From Shinella zoogloeoides (lineage in GTDB: Bacteria > Pseudomonadota > Alphaproteobacteria > Rhizobiales > Rhizobiaceae), in the NCBI RefSeq assembly GCF_003574625.1, contig NZ_QNUJ01000013.1, forward strand, positions 1-64,000: DNA of 64,000 bases, in the 5' to 3' direction. The translations under genes and the position numbers were made by a program. Shown here piece by piece: positions 39,023-48,573 of this stretch. Under the pieces are notes generated by a model that worked only from the letters and a program-made list of their open reading frames with translations, had not been told where the DNA came from and made no database searches. Numbering within the stretch: the stretch's first letter is position 1; every line of letters starts with the position of its first letter.

Positions 39023-39637
39023 GTGTCCGACATCTTCACCTGGCAGCTCGGCGCCTTGCCGACGCTGGCCGCCCTCGCCTTCGGCTATCTTCTCGGCTCC
39101 ATCCCCTTCGGCCTGATCCTCACCCGCATGGCCGGGCTCGGCGACGTGCGCGCCATCGGCTCCGGCAATATCGGCGCGACGAACGTCCTGCGCACCGGCA
39201 ACAAGAAACTCGCCGCCGCAACGCTGCTGCTCGACGCGCTGAAAGGCACGGCGGCGGCGGCCGTCGCCTCGCGCTGGGGGCTCGATGCCGGCATCGCGGC
39301 GGGCCTTGCCGCCTTTCTCGGCCATCTCTTTCCCGTCTGGCTCGGCTTCAAGGGCGGCAAGGGCGTCGCGACCTATGTCGGCGTGCTGCTCGGCCTCGTG
39401 CCGGTCATGGTCGCGGTCTTCGCCGCGGTCTGGATCGGCATGGCCTATCTCACCCGCTATTCGTCGCTCTCGGCCCTGGTTGCAACTGCCGTATCTCCGG
39501 TTGTATTGTGGTTCCTCGGTCACGAGAAGGTGGCGCTGCTCTTCGCCGTTCTCACCGTGATCACCTGGTGGAAGCATCGGGCCAATATCGGCCGCCTGAT
39601 GAACGGCACCGAAAGCAGGATCGGCAGCAAGGGATAG
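39023..39637 (+). CDS. plsY: Glycerol-3-phosphate acyltransferase PlsY
   Basis: The 204-aa inner-membrane enzyme transfers acyl from acyl-phosphate to glycerol-3-phosphate, the first step of phospholipid synthesis. Motifs are [33 protein letters not shown], and [20 protein letters not shown], with five to seven helices. I place the start at GTG 39023 because GGGGGAG sits six bases before it; an ATG 30 bases upstream lacks such a site. It is followed within three bases by dprA. Confidence 0.92.
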
Positions 39638-39639
39638 CC

Positions 39640-40197
39640 ATGGACGACCGCAGCGCAAGGACAAGAGGAATTGCGCTGACGGAACGACAGAGGATCGCCT
39701 GGCTGCGGCTGATCCGCAGCGACAATGTCGGGCCGGTCACCTTCCGCGAACTCATCAATCATTTCGGCAGCGCCGAGACGGCGCTGGAAATGCTGCCGGA
39801 ACTCTCCCGCCGCGGCGGGGCCTCGCGCAGCATCCGCGTCGCCGGCCGGGCCGAGGCGGAACGGGAGCTGGAGATCGCCGAGCGGCACGGCGCCGGCTTC
39901 GTCGGCATCGGCGAGCCGGACTATCCGCCGCTCCTGCGCCAGATCGACGGCGCGCCGCCGCTTCTCGCCGTCAAGGGCAACCGCAAGGTCACGGCGGCGC
40001 CGGCCGTCGGCATCGTCGGCGCGCGCAACGCCTCGATCTCCGGCATCAAGTTCGCCAGCCTCGTCGCGCGGGAGGTCGGCCGCACCGGCTATGTCATCGT
40101 GTCGGGCCTTGCGCGCGGCATCGATACGGCGGCCCACCGCGCCAGCCTTTCCACCGGCACCATCGCCGCCATGGCCGGCGGGCTCGACAAGCCGTGA
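39640..40197 (+). pseudogene. dprA: dprA 5' fragment, interrupted by the integrative element
   Basis: DprA loads RecA onto incoming single-stranded DNA during transformation. This 185-codon fragment has the N-terminal SAM-like region and the first part of the Rossmann-like domain (VGIVGARNASISGIKFASLV, IVSGLARGIDTAAHRASL, AGGLDKP). The frame then meets a TGA created by the insertion at 40195-40197. The true dprA sequence ends at 40189; fused to 47657 it restores AGGLDKPYPPENIGLLEEL and a 383-aa protein. Confidence 0.93.
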
Positions 40198-40212
40198 CAT
40201 ACAGTACACAAA
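40177..40212. other. attL of the integrative element
   Basis: Left of the crossover is the dprA-derived half site GGCGGGCTCGACA (40177-40189). Right of it is the element half AGCCGTGACAT with arm ACAGTACACAAA at 40201-40212. The shared core is CAAGCCGT (40188-40195). The arm is the exact reverse complement of that in attR, at the same 11-base distance from the dyad centre. Confidence 0.85.
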
Positions 40213-40242
40213 ATCTTAGACGTGGAGTTTCTTCCCACACCC

Positions 40243-40271
40243 TTGAGTTTTAAATCTGCCCCTGAGATATC
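40243..40271 (+). promoter_or_regulatory. Candidate promoter of the OLD-family gene
   Basis: TTGAGT (40243-40248), 17 bases, then GATATC (40266-40271). It lies within the element, 28 bases before the TTG start codon, so expression should not depend on dprA transcription. Confidence 0.4.
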
Positions 40272-40298
40272 TCCAAAGGATCACATAGGGACACGATT

Positions 40299-42059
40299 TT
40301 GGCTAAGTTTCTTCACGCGCTGTCGCTTCAATTTTATCGCGGTATAGGACCGCAAGAGCAGCGAATGGCTGGCTTTCAGGACTTCAACTTCTTCATCGGC
40401 GCGAACAATGCGGGAAAATCGATTGTCTTGAACTTTCTTGCGCACCGCGTAGCGCAAGGCCGCAAAGGCCTCGATGCAAACTCGGTCGAGAGTTACAGGG
40501 GGCGTACTACAGGCTCGATGGCCTATTCGATAGGCATTCCCAAAGCGACATTTTTTACCGTCGCAACTGATCAACTGCCGCAAGGCCATCGTGACGAGTT
40601 CACGCGAGGCTTGGTGGAAAAGATTGTTAGCAGAATTAGCAAGAACGACCACGTTTGGGTTGCGACTGCCGAAGGTCGTGGTCACCTTGAGTATGCTGAT
40701 ACCACCGACGTCCTTGACCTATTTCACGAGCGTGAATGGCGAGCAATCTGGAGATTACTAACACGGCAAAGCGGCGGCAGCCTTGAAGGGGATTGCATAC
40801 CGGGGACTCTAGGGAGCCTGATGCGGCCTCAAAAGATTCAGTTACCAGAAATACGGCTCATCCCGGCAAAGCGCGTGATCGGCCCGAAAGACGAGAAGTT
40901 TGAAGACCTAAGTGGGCGAGGCTTGATAGATCGGCTGGTAGAAATCCAAAGCCCCGATCATCACAGTTACGAGCACGACCGGGAGCAGTTCGCCAAAATC
41001 AATCGGTTTCTGCAAAGCGTTACGGATCGCCCCGACGCTCGGATCGAAATTCCTCATAATCGGAGCGCCATCCTGGTCCACATGGACAACAAGGTTCTCC
41101 CCTTAGAGTCTCTGGGAACGGGCATCCATGAAGTGGTTATGATCGCGGCGTTCTCTACAATTCACGAAAACTGCATCATGTGCATTGAGGAGCCGGAGAT
41201 ACACCTGCATCCGATCCTCCAGCGAAAACTCGTGCGATATCTTCAGGAGAACACAAGCAACCAATACTTCATCGCCACACACTCGGCCGCTTTCATCGAC
41301 ACCCCAGGGGCGGCGGTCTTCCACGTAAGCAATGATGGTTCCCAGACCTACATTCGCGGGACGCAATTGCGTTCCGAGAAATATCAGGTTTGCGCCGATC
41401 TTGGATATAAGGCCTCGGATATCCTTCAGTCGAACGCTGTTGTATGGGTAGAAGGGCCGTCTGATCGCATTTACCTAAAAAAGTGGATTGCGACACTGGA
41501 TGCTGACCTCATCGAAGGGGTCCACTACTCAATCATGTTCTACGGCGGTCGCCTCCTCAGTCACCTCAGCGGGGAACCGGAAGCCCTGGAGGATTTCATC
41601 CAGTTACGCTCGCTCAACAGAAACTCAGCTATAGTCATAGACAGCGACAAGACAGGGCCTAAAGCCGCCATCAATTCCACCAAGGAGCGCTTGCAGGAGG
41701 AGTTCTCGAAGGACAGCGGCCTCGCCTGGATCACCAAGGGCCGCGAGATTGAGAACTACGTTGATCACACGGCACTCCAGACGGCGGTACAGGAACTAAA
41801 CGCGGACGCCTACGATAAGCCGTCGGATGGTGGCCCATACGATCACGCCCTCTACTTCCTCAGGAACCAACCCAAGAAGCGCCGCAAGGAAACCAGTGAA
41901 CCGGAAACTCTCCTGGAGACCAGCGTGGACAAGGTGGCGGTTGCTCGCAAGTTGTGCGAGGGAGAGCTATCGCTGGACGTGCTGGACCTCAGGGAACGCG
42001 CTACCGCGCTCGTGAACTTCATTCGCGAAGCAAATCACTTGAGACCGTTGAAGGGCTAG
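40299..42059 (+). CDS. OLD-family ATPase/TOPRIM nuclease (putative anti-phage protein)
   Basis: The 586-aa protein joins an ABC/RecN-like AAA ATPase to a TOPRIM nuclease. Walker A is GANNAGKS (34-41), the ABC-type signature PLESLGTG is near 267-274, Walker B is CIMCIEEPEIHLHP (Glu pair 297-298), and the H-loop is ATHSAAF (His 328). TOPRIM residues are WVEGPSDR (Glu 385, Asp 389) and IDSDK (Asp 448, 450). P2 OLD kills lambda-infected recBC cells; class 1 OLD proteins act alone. Here no UvrD-like helicase follows, so it is not a Gabija pair. TTG start with AGGGA seven bases before. Its DNA is host-unlike in composition. Confidence 0.88.
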   Translation: MAKFLHALSLQFYRGIGPQEQRMAGFQDFNFFIGANNAGKSIVLNFLAHRVAQGRKGLDANSVESYRGRTTGSMAYSIGIPKATFFTVATDQLPQGHRDEFTRGLVEKIVSRISKNDHVWVATAEGRGHLEYADTTDVLDLFHEREWRAIWRLLTRQSGGSLEGDCIPGTLGSLMRPQKIQLPEIRLIPAKRVIGPKDEKFEDLSGRGLIDRLVEIQSPDHHSYEHDREQFAKINRFLQSVTDRPDARIEIPHNRSAILVHMDNKVLPLESLGTGIHEVVMIAAFSTIHENCIMCIEEPEIHLHPILQRKLVRYLQENTSNQYFIATHSAAFIDTPGAAVFHVSNDGSQTYIRGTQLRSEKYQVCADLGYKASDILQSNAVVWVEGPSDRIYLKKWIATLDADLIEGVHYSIMFYGGRLLSHLSGEPEALEDFIQLRSLNRNSAIVIDSDKTGPKAAINSTKERLQEEFSKDSGLAWITKGREIENYVDHTALQTAVQELNADAYDKPSDGGPYDHALYFLRNQPKKRRKETSEPETLLETSVDKVAVARKLCEGELSLDVLDLRERATALVNFIREANHLRPLKG

Positions 42060-42182
42060 CATTCCGCCCGACTTTCACTGCGGGTATAGGCAGACCCCTA
42101 GCGTCCTCCAGGGGGACGGACAGGCGGCGCTGGCTGAGGGGGCGCAGATGGAACGCCGCCGCCCGGCGTAGGCCGGTTCGCG

Positions 42183-42800
42183 CTATTCACTGGTAGTCTC
42201 GGGGCTGGCTTGTGCGTCGGCAGGCCCTTCTGTTCCCATGACTGTGGCATCTGTGTCTTTTCGTTCATTGGCACCTTCCATATTGTAGTAGGCGTGTATC
42301 GATAAGAGCACTACTCCCGCGCAAAACAGCGATAAAGCCAAGAAGTTTAAGCTGTAGGTCGCCGTCCGATACCGATTGCCGATTTCATAAGGGGCACCTT
42401 TTTCGACGCGATCCGCAATCTTCTCCAGTTCCCTCTCAGCGTCCTTCGTTCCCGTCCAATATGACGAAATATTCGACACAATAGAGAGGCCGAATGCAAG
42501 CCAGCTGAGCACTAGCAACTGGGTAAATCCAGATGACCCGGCACTAATCTTGTCCACATTTGCTATTGATATCGCCAGTGCCCCACCGCTCACTGCGAGC
42601 ACGGACCTGTCAAATGTCCGGTACTGGTCGTTTCGAAGCTCCAGCGTGCTCTTCCAGTGTTCGAGGAGGCGTGCGGTTTCTTGCTCATCAGGCGATGCCT
42701 CTACGCTCGCACCCACCTGTTCGTCTGCTGGTATAGGAGTGACTTGTGCCGTCGTTTTGTGCTCAGAGTTCTGACTATCTACCACTTCTCGTTCCGCCAA
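42183..42800 (-). CDS. Three-helix membrane protein of the element, convergent with the OLD gene
   Basis: The 205-aa product starts with TTG (GGGAGAAG just upstream). It has a 60-residue polar N-terminus with a helical EQETARLLEHWKSTLELRND, membrane helices at about 66-82, 94-115 and 148-171, a charged loop (DAERELEKIADRVEKG) and an acidic tail. The layout recalls small membrane effectors of defence systems such as SLATT-type proteins, but I see no definite family match. It could equally be a phage membrane protein. It ends 123 bases from the OLD gene. Confidence 0.6.
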   Translation of the reverse strand: MAEREVVDSQNSEHKTTAQVTPIPADEQVGASVEASPDEQETARLLEHWKSTLELRNDQYRTFDRSVLAVSGGALAISIANVDKISAGSSGFTQLLVLSWLAFGLSIVSNISSYWTGTKDAERELEKIADRVEKGAPYEIGNRYRTATYSLNFLALSLFCAGVVLLSIHAYYNMEGANERKDTDATVMGTEGPADAQASPETTSE

Positions 42801-42870
42801 AGTGCTTCTCCCAGAACAGCGAAAGCGGAACCACGGTCATCCCCAGGACCGACCCGCCCACCAAAGCCAT
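42775..42870 (-). CDS. Tiny membrane peptide overlapping the membrane-protein start
   Basis: ATG at 42870 is preceded by GGGAGA and encodes the 31-aa MALVGGSVLGMTVVPLSLFW then EKHFGGTRSGR, a single hydrophobic helix with a basic tail. It overlaps the next gene's first codons by 26 bases. It could be a leader peptide, a holin/toxin-like peptide, or chance. Confidence 0.3.
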   Translation of the reverse strand: MALVGGSVLGMTVVPLSLFWEKHFGGTRSGR

Positions 42871-43010
42871 AGTGCAAACTCTCCCATTTGCTTGAAGGTA
42901 TCCATTGTTCACACACTCCTGACACAGAATAATCCAAGATTTTCCCCAGGGGACTACCGGGGTCGAAAAATGTGGGAAGGGACACAGTCCGGCTTTGCCG
43001 CTACGCGGCC

Positions 43011-43691
43011 TCATCCTTGATCCTCTTCGCCAGTCTCGCCAGCGTGGACGTGGAGACACCCGTTCCCGGCGACATCGACCGTGCCGAGGAAGAGCGCGTC
43101 GGTGACGATGTTCGACACCAGGGCCTTAGCAGTCGAGGTGAATTCATCGTCGTCCGGCTGGACCACCAGGATGTCAGGGACGACACCCGGGGCGATCTCG
43201 TTGAGGGCGTTGGCGAAGTTGTCCTCATCGGCAAACGTGAGCGAGCCCACACCGGCACCGATGGCGACACCGGCCCAACCGCCTGTGCCGATGGTGGCGG
43301 CGACGGCGGGGAGAGCCTGACCGGCCCCCTCCGCAATCACTTCCCCAACACTCTTATCCGTATCGAACTTCGGATCGAGGCGTTCGGCGTAGTCGCGGAC
43401 GAGGTTCGCGCCGTCACCGAGGATGCTCTCGGGAAGCAGGTTCTCGGCAGCGATCGCTCCGGCGTTCATAGCGCCCTGCCCGATGTCCACGGCGATGCCG
43501 CCAGCGGTCCCCCAGAAGCCCGAGGAGCCTGGGTTGTCGATCATCTGCTGCACGAGGTCTTCGGGCTTGCCGGACAACCGGGCGAAGTCCTTGACCGCAT
43601 CGGGGTACTTGTGGGGGTTAGCGCGGACACGCGCGAGGGTCTCAGCGGATGGGAGGTGAGTCCCATCCGGCTGTCGGATGAAGTTCTTCAT
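43011..43691 (-). CDS. Phage virion/ejection-like protein, probably 3'-truncated
   Basis: The 226-aa frame follows a good AAGGA ribosome site and begins MKNFIRQPDGTHLPSAETLA. Hydrophobic glycine-rich stretches (FWGTAGGIAVDIGQGAMNAG and AVAATIGTGGWAGVAIGAGV) resemble membrane-active parts of podovirus ejection proteins. It is last in an operon after gp13- and gp14-like genes, where T7-type phages keep the large internal virion proteins. The last residues (NGCLHVHAGETGEEDQG) look out of register, and the expected protein is much longer, so a deletion near 43060 has probably cut it. Confidence 0.5.
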   Translation of the reverse strand: MKNFIRQPDGTHLPSAETLARVRANPHKYPDAVKDFARLSGKPEDLVQQMIDNPGSSGFWGTAGGIAVDIGQGAMNAGAIAAENLLPESILGDGANLVRDYAERLDPKFDTDKSVGEVIAEGAGQALPAVAATIGTGGWAGVAIGAGVGSLTFADEDNFANALNEIAPGVVPDILVVQPDDDEFTSTAKALVSNIVTDALFLGTVDVAGNGCLHVHAGETGEEDQG

Positions 43692-43745
43692 GGTTTTCCT
43701 TGAATTGCACTTCAGGAGAATAGGCCCGAAGGCCCCCCTGAGAGA

Positions 43746-44255
43746 TCAATTGAAGCGTCCTGCCGGTGTCTTGGCGGTGTTACCGGACGGGAAGTCGCCC
43801 AACGTGCCGTAACCGGACACGCCGGTTCCGGCGATGTTGAAGAAGGTCGACATCGGGCTAATCGCCTGCCGGTTGATGTCGTTCTGCGCCGTGATCTGGC
43901 TGCTCTTTCCGGCCATCACGTAGTTGGCATTGGCAGATGACTTGCGGTCCTTCGCGTTCTCGATGGACAAGGCGGTCTGACGGGATTGCTCGGCAACCCG
44001 CTGTCCTGCGGTGGCACCGCCCATCCCCTCGCCCATGGCGCGGACGGCGGAGGCGGTGCGGTCGCCCTCAAGCTGAGCCTGATAGCCCTCCTTGTTTGCG
44101 CCATCGATCTGGATCAGCCGCTCTTGCTCCTGAGCAGCATGCTCCAGCTTCGCTTGCCGAATGGACTGGTCCATGTTGGCGTCGGCGGCTTCAGCTTCGC
44201 CAATCGCGGAGGCGGCACCTGAGGCGATGCCTAGAATGAAGCCGGGATCGCACAC
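43746..44255 (-). CDS. T7 gp14-like internal virion protein
   Basis: The 169-aa protein starts with GTG behind a strong AAAGGAG. The opening CDPGFILGIASGAASAIGEA, a central helical Gln/Ala-rich part and a C-terminal SSQITAQNDINRQAISPMST then FFNIAGTGVSGYGTLG follow the layout of T7 gp14 (internal virion protein B), which forms a channel across the outer membrane during DNA ejection. Its start overlaps the end of the gp13-like gene by 25 bases. The assignment rests on pattern, length and gene order. Confidence 0.6.
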   Translation of the reverse strand: MCDPGFILGIASGAASAIGEAEAADANMDQSIRQAKLEHAAQEQERLIQIDGANKEGYQAQLEGDRTASAVRAMGEGMGGATAGQRVAEQSRQTALSIENAKDRKSSANANYVMAGKSSQITAQNDINRQAISPMSTFFNIAGTGVSGYGTLGDFPSGNTAKTPAGRFN

Positions 44256-44731
44256 TCAGCGCTCCTTTCGATCATAAATGGGCGGAATAGTTCCCCGCGA
44301 GGCCCCAAGGGCTTCTTCGGGAAGACCGTCGCGCCGATTGCGCGGAGCCAGCGGAGATAAAGGCGGTTGCTGGCATGGGTGAAGTTGACGAGGTATCGAA
44401 GCTGTGAGTTCTCCGCGAACCAACGGCGGATGACATTGCGGGTCTCTCGCACCAGCGGTGCGCGGAACCGGGAGACAGTCGAGGTGCCAACAGCCCATAC
44501 TCCTGCCGTCGTCTCGTCCAGCGGAGCGAAGCCGAAGACCAGTATAGGTCGCCCGTCGTGTTCCACGATGCGGACCTCAGAGGACTCGGCTACGGCCATG
44601 GTGAGGCGGTCGCGGTAGTTCGAGTGGCCGGAAGCCGCCCGGAGCTCCCTCGCGTCGGCAGCGCGGAGATTGGCGGCGATGTAGTCGAGGTCATCCGGCT
44701 GGAGTTCGCGGATGAGGTAATGGGGGGCCAT
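44231..44731 (-). CDS. T7 gp13-like (internal virion protein A) acetyltransferase-fold protein
   Basis: The 166-aa protein has the shape of T7 gp13: a GNAT-like fold with IRELQPDDLDYIAANLRAAD, GRPILVFGFAPLDETTAGVW and the C-terminal NFTHASNRLYLRWLRAIGAT then VFPKKPLGPRGELFRPF. T7 gp13 has the comparable WVGNTSHIRFLKTIGAVFHE. It is needed for virion assembly but is not in mature T7 particles. It starts two bases after the preceding gene's stop. Confidence 0.65.
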   Translation of the reverse strand: MAPHYLIRELQPDDLDYIAANLRAADARELRAASGHSNYRDRLTMAVAESSEVRIVEHDGRPILVFGFAPLDETTAGVWAVGTSTVSRFRAPLVRETRNVIRRWFAENSQLRYLVNFTHASNRLYLRWLRAIGATVFPKKPLGPRGELFRPFMIERSAECAIPASF

Positions 44732-44733
44732 GT

Positions 44734-45162
44734 TTATGCGGCTACTCCCATTGTTGCGGTGGAGGCCGTGGAGAGGCGTTTGGGTTCGGAGCTACCCTTG
44801 CCTACCTCGCCCCCGTCTTGCGCGTCCTTGACGCCTACGGAGTCAGGGAATGCCTTATATCGGACGGGATGAAGGGAGCGGGTCTCGCTTTCGACCACGT
44901 TGGTCCCGGCCCATGCCGCCAGAGTCCGGTCGCGACGGAAGACAGGGATGAAGCCTTCCCGGTCCAACGCCTTGCGGATGATGTGGACGCGCTCCTGCGG
45001 GTCGTGGCCTTGCTCGATCAGCTTTCGGCAGATTACCGGGATAGGACTCTTGGTGGTCCCCTTCTTGTGCAAGTCGGAATGCCCTGCGGTGGTGTCGCCT
45101 TTAACATGGCGAGCGGCATACGAGCCGATGAGTTCGATTGTGATGGTGGTGGCGGTGTTCAA
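44734..45162 (-). CDS. Hypothetical first gene of the virion-type operon (142 aa)
   Basis: I take TTG at 45162 (AAAGGTATCC upstream) as the start, giving LNTATTITIELIGSYAARHV ... SPIPVICRKLIEQGHDPQER. A basic helical core (VHIIRKALDREGFIPVFRRD) is followed by a disordered acidic tail. No known domain is recognised. It is the head of a compact operon with the gp13-like gene. A role as a regulator, such as a recombination directionality factor, is possible only by position and basic charge. Confidence 0.45.
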   Translation of the reverse strand: MNTATTITIELIGSYAARHVKGDTTAGHSDLHKKGTTKSPIPVICRKLIEQGHDPQERVHIIRKALDREGFIPVFRRDRTLAAWAGTNVVESETRSLHPVRYKAFPDSVGVKDAQDGGEVGKGSSEPKRLSTASTATMGVAA

Positions 45163-46054
45163 ATCTGGATACCTTTGCCAGTGGTCGGGCGGTTGCCCGG
45201 CGAAAGTGCGCGTGGTGCCGAAGGCACGGTGACGCGATGGGACGCCCGGGGGTGAAGCCGGGGCGGATGGGGTGATGAGATGGCGGTGGATTGGTCGGCT
45301 GGAAAAGTCAGCCGTGGAGAGCCGCGAGGGCCTCTCGGGTGTCATCGGTCACGGAAGACGACGAACGCGATAAATCGCTCCTACCGCAACAGAAAGGGCG
45401 TAGGTCTGGTGGCGCTGGAGGATGCAAGATTGGGAGGGACACCAAGGATGCCGCCGAGATCAAGCAAAGCACACCGCCGGGAGGCCTGAGCGATCTACAA
45501 GGCAGCATCCTTGGACCGTATGTCGTGGGAGGGCGACTATGAAGAAGGAGATGGAAGGTTCACTGAAGGGAACCGGGAGGTACTCAGTGACACCCTAAGA
45601 AGAATACTTCTTCATAACCTTCATTAAAAACCAAAAGAAACCCTAAGTGTAACTTAGAGTTAGATAGGGTAGACTGAATACTAAACTCAGGTCAAGAGGA
45701 TTTTGTCTCCAGCGAAGCAAATACCCTGTCTTCTCTGCCATCCAAACCCCATCGGTTGTTCGAAGTTTTTCGTTCGTATGTGCAGTATTGAGGGGGTAAT
45801 GCCTGTCGTCTTTAGGATCACTGAGCATCATCGCCGGTCTCGGAGGGCAATCTACCGGCCACCTGCCGAACCCCGCTGAAACGCCGTCACCGCAACAGAA
45901 CGAACGCGGGTCTGGTGGAGACGGAAGGTGGCCCCGTGGGTGAACCGGCGGGGGCCGAAAGGTGGCTCGGCGTGTACTATATGCAGGGGTAATTCCCACA
46001 GACCCGTGGATGTTCTCTATATGAGCACTTAATTCCGGGACTGCGGTTGTAGGC
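45163..46054. other. Gene-poor zone of the element with direct repeats and hairpins
   Basis: About 890 bases hold no convincing gene. A 30-base motif starting ACCGCAACAGAA and ending GGTCTGGTGG occurs at 45383-45412 and 45889-45918 with 25 of 30 identities. The AT-rich stretch 45590-45700 holds AAGAAG-AATA-CTTCTT (45597-45612) and CTAAGT-GTA-ACTTAG hairpins. Open frames here change character along their length. It may hold phage promoters, an origin, or operon control sites. Confidence 0.45.
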
Positions 46055-47593
46055 TCAGGTAGTATCGTCGCTCCGCTCAAAATCGCTATCGCCGCTGTAG
46101 TCGAAGACAAGATTGTGAGGAAGCCGCCGCCCCCTGAGGTGTACGTGGGCACCGTTTATGTCACCATCGATGTACGGTTCCATCACGATCTTGTCGACAA
46201 CGGAAGCAATCAGATTCCTTAGGGCTGGCCTATCGTTCATCCGCATGGCCTGAGCCCCCTTCAACGCCGTCGCGATACCCGCCACCTGGGAAGCCGCCTC
46301 GCTCTCCGCAGCGGCATCTTCGGACAATTCAACCAGACGCGCCCTCAGGGCGTCAGCGTCCTTGGAGAGCTTGTCAGCGGCCATCCGAAACGAACGCTGG
46401 TTCTCCGGCGTTTCCGCCTCAATGGACATCTGGATGGCGTTCTCTCGTCTAGCGTTCAGCGCCTCCAGGCGCTCCACCAGGGCGTCCCGCTCGCTTGGCT
46501 CGGGGCTGCTCCCAGGTGCCTCAACGGACCTCGCCAGGATGCCCCCGAGTCCCCCGACGAACTTCTCTTCGAAGAAGTCATAAGGCCAGTTTCGAGCGGT
46601 GCACTCGTTCCGGGCTGTCGCCCTATGGGAGCAAACCGCATACCTGTACCGCTTCCATCCGCTGCTCGTGGTCGTGACGTTCATCGGCCCACCACACCCG
46701 CCACAGATGAGGAGCCGAGGAAAGAGATTGGCATCCGTTGATGCCTGGGGGTTCCGCCTCTGCCGCCGCGCCCGATTGCTGATGGCAAGCGAGGTGGTCT
46801 CTGAAATCAGAGCCGGGAAATAGTTCGGTTGCTCATGACCCTTGATCACCAAGGTTCCGTAGGCTTCCTTGGATTTGAGGACATCTTGAACCATGCTCCG
46901 TCCCCAGGTGCCCCCGCGAGAACTCGGGATGCCCTTCTCGTTGATAAGGCGGGTGATTGCACTAGCGCCATACCCCGCCGCCGCAAGCCTGAAAATCTCA
47001 CGGGCATCATCGGCACGGGCGTTGAACTCCTGGGTGTCCCTGTCGATCCAGAACGGCACCTTGCTTATCGGCACACGTTCGCCGGAGGCAATGCGGCTAA
47101 TTCTGTTGCTCCAGGACTCTTTCAGCCGGACACTCTTCTTCCGGCTCTCGTCATGCGCAAGTTGCATGCTGACAAGTGAGGGGACCAGGAGCATCGGGTT
47201 TTCGCGGTACTTCGCGTCAGTGTGGATCGCCTCGTCCTGGAGGGTGACGATGATCAGGCCTGTCTTGAGAACCTCCAGGAAAATCGGCAAGACGTCCATC
47301 GGGTTCAACCGGGAGAAGCGGTCCATGTTCTCAATGAGAAGCACGAGATCGGCGGAGAGAGCGCCGGAGCGGATGCCGTTCAGGAACGCCCCAAGACCGG
47401 CCTCAAGGTTGCTCCCGGAAAACGCGCTAACACCCTCATCGACAATCTGGCGATCAAGCACCATCCCGGCCTTTGCCGCATACTCGGTGGCAATCTTGGT
47501 CTGGCGAGCGGACGAACTCCCACGCGATTGACGCCCTGAGGACCACCGGGCATAGGACACGGCGGTTTTGCCGGATAGCTCTGAGATATGCAT
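46055..47593 (-). CDS. int: Large serine recombinase (integrase) of the element
   Basis: The 512-aa protein has the resolvase/invertase catalytic domain with VSYARWSSGRQSRGSS (nucleophile Ser 18 or 19) and DLVLLIENMDRFSR. The recombinase domain follows (AITRLINEKGIPSSRGGTWG), then a zinc ribbon (LLICGGCGGPM ... CSHRATARNEC) and a coiled-coil segment near 370-430. Large serine integrases join attB and attP without host factors, and need a directionality factor for excision. The gene is next to attR, as usual. ATG at 47593 with GAGGT six bases before. Confidence 0.93.
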   Translation of the reverse strand: MHISELSGKTAVSYARWSSGRQSRGSSSARQTKIATEYAAKAGMVLDRQIVDEGVSAFSGSNLEAGLGAFLNGIRSGALSADLVLLIENMDRFSRLNPMDVLPIFLEVLKTGLIIVTLQDEAIHTDAKYRENPMLLVPSLVSMQLAHDESRKKSVRLKESWSNRISRIASGERVPISKVPFWIDRDTQEFNARADDAREIFRLAAAGYGASAITRLINEKGIPSSRGGTWGRSMVQDVLKSKEAYGTLVIKGHEQPNYFPALISETTSLAISNRARRQRRNPQASTDANLFPRLLICGGCGGPMNVTTTSSGWKRYRYAVCSHRATARNECTARNWPYDFFEEKFVGGLGGILARSVEAPGSSPEPSERDALVERLEALNARRENAIQMSIEAETPENQRSFRMAADKLSKDADALRARLVELSEDAAAESEAASQVAGIATALKGAQAMRMNDRPALRNLIASVVDKIVMEPYIDGDINGAHVHLRGRRLPHNLVFDYSGDSDFERSDDTT

Positions 47594-47623
47594 GAGGTCA
47601 CCTCGCGAAGCACTGAGACCTCA
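47593..47623 (-). promoter_or_regulatory. Inverted repeat at the integrase start
   Basis: TGAGGTC (47593-47599) and GACCTCA (47617-47623) are perfect reverse complements. The local GAGGT-C-ACCTC palindrome (47594-47604) includes the integrase Shine-Dalgarno. It could be an operator or an mRNA fold that hides the ribosome site. Confidence 0.45.
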
Positions 47624-47633
47624 GCGATAGCGC

Positions 47634-47669
47634 TTTGTGTACTGTCTTTCAAGGCAAGCCGTATCCGCC
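47634..47669. other. attR of the integrative element
   Basis: The element arm TTTGTGTACTGT (47634-47645) is followed by CTTTCAAGGCA, the core CAAGCCGT (47655-47662) and the dprA half AGCCGTATCCGCC (47657-47669). The dprA halves of attL and attR together give a dyad with GGCGG and CCGCC arms centred on the same AA dinucleotide as the element dyad. Confidence 0.85.
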
Positions 47670-48258
47670 GGAAAACATCGGCCTGCTGGAGGAACTGACG
47701 GACGGACAGGGCCTTGCCGTCAGCGAAATGCCCTTCGGCTGGGAGCCGCGGGCGCGGGACTTTCCCCGCCGCAACCGGCTGATCGCCGGCATGGCGCTCG
47801 GGCTGGTGGTCGTGGAGGCGGCGGTGCGCTCCGGCTCGCTGATCACGGCGCGCAACGCGGCCGATTTCGGCCGGCTGGTCTTCGCGGTGCCCGGCTCGCC
47901 GCTCGATCCGCGCTGCGAAGGCACCAACGGCCTGCTCAAGGACGGCGCGACCATCACCACGACGCCGGAGGATGTGCTGGAGGCCCTGCGGCCGCTGTCG
48001 GAGCCGGACCTCTTCACCCCCCGCCCCGGCGCCGGCGAGCCGGCGGAGGACGCCGCGCCCGGCCTGCGGCTGCCGCCGAGCGACGGGGAGCGTGACCGTA
48101 TCGCGGATGCGCTGAGCCAAGTGCCCGCCGAGATCGACGAGATCATCCGCCACACCGGCATTCCGGCCGCGACGGTCTATCTCGTCCTTCTAGAACTTGA
48201 CCTTGCCGGCCGGCTTCAGCGGCATGTCGGCGGCGGCGTCTCGCTGAACCTTGAATGA
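47657..48258 (+). pseudogene. dprA: dprA 3' fragment
   Basis: This carries the rest of DprA: YPPENIGLLEELTDGQGLAV, RRNRLIAGMALGLVVVEAAV, SGSLITARNAADFGRLVFAV and PGSPLDPRCEGTNGLLKDGA, then a linker and the C-terminal winged-helix domain (IDEIIRHTGIPAATVYLVLL). It has no promoter or start of its own that I can support; an in-frame start just inside attR would give a fragment lacking the first Rossmann strands. It is intact in frame, so excision would restore dprA. Confidence 0.92.
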
Positions 48259-48444
48259 CAGCGGGCGCAACCCCGCCAGGATATCGCCCGCCTCCATATA
48301 GGCCATCTCGATGAAATAGCGCAGGACGTCCGCACCCTCGTTGTTCACGACGGTGCGCAACTCGCCCAGCATCTGGCGGCTGTAGGCGATGTTCTCCTCT
48401 GCCGTATGCGGCGGAAGCGCAGGTCTGGTGGGTTTCGAGTTCAT
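48190..48444 (-). CDS. Small conserved hypothetical protein overlapping the dprA end
   Basis: The 84-aa protein MNSKPTRPALPPHTAEENIA ... YSRQMLGELRTVVNNEGADV is mostly helical with a basic C-terminus (PLKPAGKVKF). It lies between dprA and topA on the opposite strand, and its last 69 bases overlap the dprA 3' end. A hypothetical gene of this position exists in Sinorhizobium as I recall. I chose the ATG at 48444; upstream codons include a second possible start. Confidence 0.7.
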   Translation of the reverse strand: MNSKPTRPALPPHTAEENIAYSRQMLGELRTVVNNEGADVLRYFIEMAYMEAGDILAGLRPLSFKVQRDAAADMPLKPAGKVKF

Positions 48445-48483
48445 GGCTTTCCCGTTGTGCCTACGTTTCGGAATCACCGAAAG

Positions 48484-48573
48484 GTTGCAATTCCTCTCCC
48501 TAGGAAACGATACAACGATTATTTATAATTGCAACACCACAATAATCTCGTATTGGTTGCATCTCGTTGCATT
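48484..48573. promoter_or_regulatory. AT-rich region with four GTTGCA boxes upstream of topA
   Basis: GTTGCAATT (48484-48492) and AATTGCAAC (48527-48535) are a 9-bp perfect inverted repeat. Two more GTTGCAT boxes follow in direct orientation at 48556-48562 and 48566-48573. The stretch is much richer in A/T than its surroundings. It lies between divergent genes and probably binds a regulator of topA, the small gene, or both. Confidence 0.5.

Follow-up and report, generated by a model that had tools for sequence, protein, structure and literature searches.

The window analysed here is a stretch of 64,000 nucleotides from Shinella zoogloeoides (contig NZ_QNUJ01000013.1, assembly GCF_003574625.1), in which the dprA gene is split by an integrated element carrying a large serine integrase, genes resembling those of T7-like phages and a candidate defence gene. 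A preliminary description had placed this insert at 40190-47656, with the two dprA halves in frame. The insert is real: when 39640-40189 is fused with 47657-48258, a single DprA open reading frame (ORF) of 383 aa results, and DprA families are matched by both halves (Pfam). Uninterrupted dprA in relatives, which the same description had proposed to look for, was found as well. The gene is continuous over the junction position in all 20 other genomes of the genus (every one retrieved besides the window's own, 21 in total) at 80-98% identity, the count being one of unbroken alignments. A genome of the same species aligns gap-free with the joined dprA over 1,152 bp at 98.4% identity. The insertion is site-specific and its ends are resolved, as is generally asked of phage satellites.

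An 8-bp core, CAAGCCGT, had been claimed for both junctions and is present at both. This 8-mer occurs 5 times in the window versus 2.3 expected, so that the repeat by itself proves little; moreover, since the empty site of the same-species genome reads CAAGCCCT, the secure common core is at most CAAGCC. The G could reflect host variation. Immediately within each end of the element lies one arm of a 12-bp inverted repeat (ACAGTACACAAA / TTTGTGTACTGT), and these arms are perhaps the half-sites of the integrase. GC content is 0.51-0.65 within the element versus mostly 0.64-0.70 outside. Features of the locus are as follows.

39640..40189, plus strand: dprA 5' part (DprA_N, DNA_processg_A)
40188..40195, plus strand: left junction CAAGCCGT (repeat search, join)
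40190..47656, no strand: integrated element, 7,467 bp, inside dprA (in-frame join, uninterrupted dprA in relatives)
40201..40212, no strand: terminal inverted-repeat arm ACAGTACACAAA (inverted repeat I1)
40299..42059, plus strand: OLD-like ATPase, probably with TOPRIM, candidate defence cargo (AAA_15 5e-18; PADLOC GajA 3e-18, AriA 5e-18)
42183..42800, minus strand: P0002, membrane-type protein by reading, no family (no Pfam or PADLOC match)
43011..43691, minus strand: gp15/16-like ejection protein, N-terminal piece of roughly 200 residues (63% to the 1,221-aa protein of podophage L088 over 223 aa)
43746..44255, minus strand: gp14-like internal virion (ejection) protein (T7_gp14 5e-8; 68% to podophage L088)
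44231..44731, minus strand: gp13-like protein of T7-like phages (PHROG 308 internal virion protein 4e-26; 39-46% to podophage loci L088-L093)
44734..45345, minus strand: P0006, gene of the putative satellite family (38% over 102 aa to element G698, E 4e-13)
45973..45994, minus strand: predicted T7-like phage RNA polymerase promoter 2, AATTACCCCTGCATATAGTACA (18.8 bits, phage-only matrix)
46013..46034, minus strand: predicted T7-like phage RNA polymerase promoter 1, AATTAAGTGCTCATATAGAGAA (25.2 bits, phage-only matrix)
46055..47593, minus strand: large serine integrase, 512 aa, adjoining the dprA 3' part (Recombinase, Zn_ribbon_recom; PHROG 95 integrase 2e-59; in a clade with five other element integrases)
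47634..47645, no strand: terminal inverted-repeat arm TTTGTGTACTGT (inverted repeat I1)
47655..47662, plus strand: right junction CAAGCCGT (repeat search, join)
47657..48258, plus strand: dprA 3' part (second half of DNA_processg_A, DprA_WH)

Read inward from the dprA 3' side, the integrase is followed by a 0.7-kb gap, P0006 (whose true start is, by reading, likely the TTG at 45162), the gp13-like and gp14-like genes, the gp15/16 piece, P0002 and the OLD-like gene. The latter lies at the far end, on the strand opposite to the remaining genes. The large serine integrase reported beside attR is thus present, and the residues known as catalytic in serine recombinases are conserved in an alignment of six sequences. 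The reported gene list, a candidate defence nuclease plus virion-type genes, also stands, except that one virion-type gene is a truncated gp15/16, whose DNA matches to podophages stop near 43063-43099. A full phage gene set is absent from the seven proteins of the element. Pfam and PHROGs scans of these revealed no replication or packaging family and no RNA polymerase, DNA polymerase, head or terminase gene, only gp13, gp14 and partial gp15/16. Rfam gave no match up to E 0.1 in 39500-48500. Between the promoter sites and P0006 lie two copies of a 57-bp stretch (45368-45424 and 45874-45930) that are 70% alike.

Related elements, their sites and their cargo

The preliminary description had also suggested a search for other copies of the integrase with the same cargo. 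Five related elements were detected, each referred to here by the handle of its genome; their cargo differs from element to element. Among 297 genomes of the family (the window's included), the closest integrases are those of G172, G067 and G271 (43-47% identity), the next best reaching 33-35%. Further relatives came from G694 (48%, among 8 genomes of the genus of G172) and from a collection scan (Mesorhizobium sp. CA8, 39%). Scans of IMG/VR with the integrase found no relative. A midpoint-rooted tree was constructed from the six element integrases and 19 other serine recombinases of the family, namely G781 and, out of 26 candidate loci, the 18 whose open stretch is at least 400 aa. All six fall into one clade (support 0.999), in which the other five group at 0.927 and the window's integrase is the deepest branch.

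Three of the six clade members reside in dprA, the elements of G172 and G694 at the same codon as that of the window. The G271 and CA8 elements are both found at the end of the same conserved gene, DUF2147-like by reading, and their ends were set by comparison with relatives that lack an interruption; the G067 element lies in a dipeptidase-like gene (by reading). Membership in the integrase clade does not extend to three further elements described below: G781 has a different serine integrase and lies in comM/yifB (by reading), while G698 and G123 have a tyrosine integrase (by reading). The G781 locus (L072, G781:C1:781001-801000) is an element of about 7 kb whose core closely resembles that of CA8 and whose site is another DNA-uptake gene, again by reading. 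Occurrence of dprA in three elements and of comM/yifB in a fourth hints at a preference for competence genes as insertion sites. Mobile elements may gain by disabling transformation. Satellites that move by natural competence have been reported, which counts against such a gain (PMC13376191).

The relatives share a co-directional operon between integrase and cargo, comprising s158, a ParB-like gene, gp14, s260, s245 and s180, with s100 on the reverse strand. A whole gp14 gene occurs in CA8 and in G781, part of one in G698 and a remnant in G271; none was seen in G172, G694 or G067. Operon genes are kept with other or unseen integration modules in G781, G698, G751 (cut by the contig end) and the divergent G123. 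The G698 locus (L074, G698:C92:253001-273000) combines the operon core with its tyrosine integrase (by reading) and three large restriction-type genes; from this locus, the integration module seems to be exchanged as a unit. With relatives, the window element shares the integrase, gp14 (48-53%) and P0006, whose G698 counterpart is placed between s158 and gp14.

Core genes are under purifying selection: the ratio of nonsynonymous to synonymous substitution rates (dN/dS) between CA8 and G781 is 0.07-0.22 for five core genes, a set that excludes gp14 of this pair and gp13. The s245 profile matches in 4 of 394 family genomes. For the s260 profile, the figures are 8 of the 119 genomes of the G271 genus, 5 at 490 bits or more, and 4 of 397 genomes of the order, 2 of these weakly. 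Neither s260 nor s245 found a match in 50,697 phage records, nor s260 in 72,556 plasmids (s158 and s180 were not among the queries of these searches), and IMG/VR scans with s260 and s245 gave no relative. The window's gp14 and P0003 likewise had no match in the same phage records at E 0.01. The podophage group in question is therefore thinly represented there, and absence from these records means less. The idea that s245, s260 and s180 mimic scaffold proteins was dropped, HHalign probability being at most 1.1% in comparisons with nine G232 podophage proteins that included scaffold and capsid. Distant s260 relatives (24-35%) beside a ParB-like gene were noted in G772 (L076) and G792 (L077) and may form another branch of the family. 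About 1 kb downstream in G792 is a gene whose product is 24% like the OLD-like protein of the window.

Cargo resembling defence genes was observed in 4 of 8 elements. In the window, the OLD-like protein matches AAA_15, scores 16.6 bits for OLD-like_TOPRIM (under the cut-off of 23.2), and solved OLD and GajA chains align mainly to its ATPase part. Beside the GajA-type score, Pfam found no helicase family (GajB) among the window proteins, so that the pair defining Gabija is absent; P0002 is perhaps the partner of the OLD-like protein (by reading). CA8 carries within its element ends a CD-NTase (SMODS and AGS_C) and a SLATT_4 protein with two transmembrane segments, which is a CBASS pair. The G172 cargo is one protein of HD-CE plus ATPase type (Pfam), its sole PADLOC match being to part of a DRT model. 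In G698, whose outer end was not located, a helicase that weakly matches type III restriction (2e-6) is accompanied by a methyltransferase-like and a third protein (by reading). Three of these four elements, the window's included, have their cargo on the strand opposite to the promoter-led operon. Of the remaining elements, G694 carries a TPR protein without PADLOC match and an insertion-sequence-type transposase; G271, whose cargo genes were not scanned, carries a second serine recombinase and small genes, and is not called defence-like; G067 and G781 have hardly any genes beyond the core. The second recombinase-like ORF of G271 (563 aa, by reading) lies inside the 13.6-kb element toward its far end (L036, G271:C44:285001-304600).

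Element lengths fall into a short group of 6,929 bp (G067), about 7.05 kb (G781) and 7,467 bp (window) and a long group of 12,557 bp (G694), 13,603 bp (G172), about 13.6 kb (G271) and about 13.8 kb (CA8). Most lengths of the long group are about one third of a 41-42-kb helper, a proportion also known from satellites in small capsids; this is suggestive only.

T7-like podophages and promoter-like sites

A scan of IMG/VR with gp14 retrieved six viral loci (L088-L093), five contigs of 41-44 kb and one 8.5-kb fragment, L093 being the phage of genome G232. All six contain gp13, gp14, a gene of 650-680 aa and gp15/16 in this order (gp15/16 partial in L090 and L092), and portal, scaffold and capsid genes are present in the examined stretches of L088-L091. 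T7-type RNA polymerase is encoded in five of the six records, the sixth being the 8.5-kb fragment. No match to s158, s260, s245, s180 or the integrase was found in the podophage stretches examined. CA8 gp14 is 65-67% identical to those of L090 and L091, and a 67-aa protein of G067 is 64% identical to the product of a small gene preceding portal in the same two phages, which we take to be the position of T7 gp7.3. In a tree of nine gp14 sequences, the window groups with L088 (0.985) and CA8 with G781 (0.989), suggesting that gp14 may have been captured at least twice. Between CA8 and G781, gp14 DNA is 61-73% identical versus mostly 82-93% in the flanks; judged by this island, gp14 is either exchanged or diversified on its own. 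Exact 15-mers considered as a packaging signal common to elements and phages were rejected, as they are scattered or fall within gp14, gp15/16 and the gp7.3-like gene.

The G232 podophage contains six copies of ATTTCCCCCTCATATWG, located by reading before the RNA polymerase, in early genes, before the portal block, before capsid and near the right end. AATTACCCCTCCATATAGAGAG and its variants form the corresponding site before the gene in gp7.3 position of L088, L089, L090 and L091. A matrix was constructed from these ten podophage sites, the six of G232 weighted as one, and hits of at least 13 bits were accepted. Other versions of the matrix give promoter 1 of the window 25.6-26.2 bits and promoter 2 19.9-20.2 bits. 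Among 100 first-order Markov sequences, best scores averaged 10.1 and did not exceed 16.8.

Eight elements were scanned, with G751 (contig starting inside the operon), the divergent G123, G772 and G792 left out. The gaps between integrase and operon, bounded by hand and amounting to 4.1 kb, hold 18 hits in 7 of the 8 elements (window 2, G172 2, G694 5, G067 2, G271 3, CA8 2, G698 2, G781 0), none of them off the operon strand. The remaining 84.6 kb of the elements gave 1 hit, and the 112.6 kb of host control also gave 1, at 13.7 bits. The three sites of G271 stand in tandem, 98 bp apart.

A simple pattern is less telling. AATTWN6CATAYAGAGA, composed after promoter 1 had been seen, occurs with up to 2 mismatches once in the 5.375-Mb genome of the window, namely at promoter 1 with 0 mismatches, and its reversed control also occurs once. 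With up to 1 mismatch, the loose pattern was found in 14 host genomes at 9 places outside elements, versus 9 for the reversed control, and at 5 inside elements; in the six phage records it was found at 8 places, versus 0 for the control. Since the pattern equals its control outside elements, it is no evidence alone; what carries weight is where the sites lie, together with the phage-only matrix. For both G172 sites, the closest phage is that of G232, which is from the same genus, with 18 and 19 of 22 bases shared. For the window, L088 had been considered a matched helper on account of promoter 2 and gp14. This candidate was dropped: promoter 2 matches L088 and G232 equally well (17 of 22 bases each), and the phage closest to promoter 1 is L090 (17 of 22). 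A further motif, CCTGTTTTTnTCTnGGTGG, follows the promoter sites in the integrase-operon gap of 6 of the 8 elements (L032, L075, L034, L036, L071 and L074). It was considered as a T7 polymerase pause signal and rejected, since no copy with up to 3 substitutions is present in the phage stretches examined, in G781 or in the window.

A putative satellite family and its alternatives

We consider it probable that the element belongs to a so far undescribed family of Rhizobiaceae phage satellites whose helpers are T7-like temperate podophages. Since s260, s245 and s180 have no match in it, the window copy is called a reduced member, and probably is one. Where the preliminary description had wavered between a phage-satellite-like element and a minimised prophage, the satellite side is supported by the integrase clade, the conserved operon, the promoter arrays at one place and the interchangeable cargo, and the prophage alternative is retained for this copy.

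According to the favoured reading, the operon would be silent unless a helper is present. Upon helper entry or induction of a helper prophage, the T7-type RNA polymerase would read the satellite promoters and switch the operon on, so that expression is expected only where a T7-like phage is active. The satellite would then excise, ride on helper replication and be packaged in helper particles. Dependence of replication on the helper would follow from the lack of a replication family in the window element, relatives having only the ParB-like gene. Its own gp14 (gp7.3-like in another member) might be built into helper particles, or might compete with the helper's copy or interfere with its core, and the cargo would protect the cell against other phages. 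If all this is read jointly with the exchangeable gp14 copy (gp7.3-like elsewhere), satellite particles may deliver their DNA via a satellite-encoded ejection channel. We hold this tentatively, at slightly less than even odds, which were lowered a little when the matched-helper idea was dropped for the window.

Several observations weigh against this reading. The searches that left s260, s245 and s180 unmatched in the window element were made at E 1e-3, and with these genes absent and gp15/16 truncated the window copy may be immobile. Neither s260 nor s245 has relatives of known function, and single-sequence structure models of the L031 proteins are not usable (mean predicted local distance difference test score, pLDDT, 47.5 for s260 and 54.2 for s245). 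Half of the elements (4 of 8) have no cargo callable as defence. The genome of the window has no second gp14, and no packaging signal common to elements and phages was found. The G781 gap gave no matrix hit, its one site, CTAATATCGTCATATGGAGA, appearing only in a looser post hoc search, and G123 has no site reaching 13 bits. Promoters and gp14 of the window do not clearly indicate one phage. Finally, induction, excision and packaging are steps deduced from the sequence.

The alternative that survives best, although we find it unlikely, is a decayed T7-like prophage, in which deletion left the integrase, two phage promoters, gp13-gp14, a gp15/16 stump and a defence cargo gene. The podophage-like order gp13-gp14-gp15/16, DNA identity of 72-73% to L088 in parts, the truncation of gp15/16 and the absence of the three satellite genes would all suit such an origin. 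However, the integrase falls in the satellite clade and has no relative in the examined stretches of the six podophage loci or in the IMG/VR scan, each of which covered a part only, and the G232 prophage ends in a tyrosine integrase (by reading). Moreover, P0006 has a relative in element G698 but none in the podophage stretches, and the window promoters are placed as in the other elements.

Less likely still is an infection-triggered defence island that moves by other routes, with the phage promoters acting as a sensor through which a T7-like polymerase switches on interfering ejection proteins. Its promoters would be readable by an invader, defence-like cargo is present in half of the elements, and the window element has no packaging or replication family. 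On the contrary, open integrases and several insertion sites suggest active transfer, core genes are under purifying selection, and the cargo is antisense to the promoter-led operon in three of the four defence-like elements, the window's included. Assembly artefact or chance can practically be dismissed, given that two other genomes have elements with related integrases at this dprA codon and that the join is in frame.

How does the putative satellite compare with known ones? PICI and P4-like satellites carry AlpA, Rep or primase, and packaging or capsid-size genes; phage Kapi1, helper of one PICI, is P22-like and is not known to have a T7-type polymerase. PICMI, 6.1 kb long in the type element, has an integrase and few genes, lacks capsid remodelling genes and protects against other phages; its defining genes are int, alpA and prim, and its site is the fis gene (PMC10803314). 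The window element is similarly small, with an integrase, few genes, no capsid remodelling genes and putative protection from other phages (here by candidate cargo), but it has no AlpA or primase match (Pfam, PHROGs) and resides in dprA instead of fis. A 2024 review lists P4-like, PICI, cfPICI, PLE, PICMI, VEIME, tycheposons, soil-bacteria satellites and pDolos (PMC11389934). With PICI, cfPICI, PLE and P4-like elements our family shares an integrase and the lack of a full virion gene set. It differs in that neither the window proteins nor the six core proteins of relatives match AlpA, primase, Rep, terminase or capsid, although distant versions could escape, and in having helper-polymerase promoter-like sites instead of the induction routes of those families. 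EcCIMP1 likewise has a temperate helper named as a podophage, vB_EcoP_Kapi1, but is a PICI with the PICI gene set (PMC11773190). The T7-like temperate podophages themselves (L088-L093, G232 prophage) share gp13, gp14, gp15/16 and the promoter type with the element, whereas five of the six contigs are of 41-44 kb with RNA polymerase and head genes, and s158, s260, s245, s180 and the integrase are unmatched in the stretches examined.

Among the open-access papers searched, none links a phage satellite with a single-subunit RNA polymerase, none from 2015 on links one with a T7-like podovirus helper, and, by title, none on satellites and Rhizobium deals with such a family. The claim of the preliminary description that the element had not been described before rests on these open-access papers. 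Among the titles and beginnings of abstracts listed, no such family appeared, which is not proof.

What is new in the proposal, and most open to testing, is the helper-polymerase switch, as the helper-sensing step of a satellite would be readable from its DNA. If true, T7-like podophages would join the helpers known to have satellites, and the question would arise why a satellite keeps its own ejection protein.

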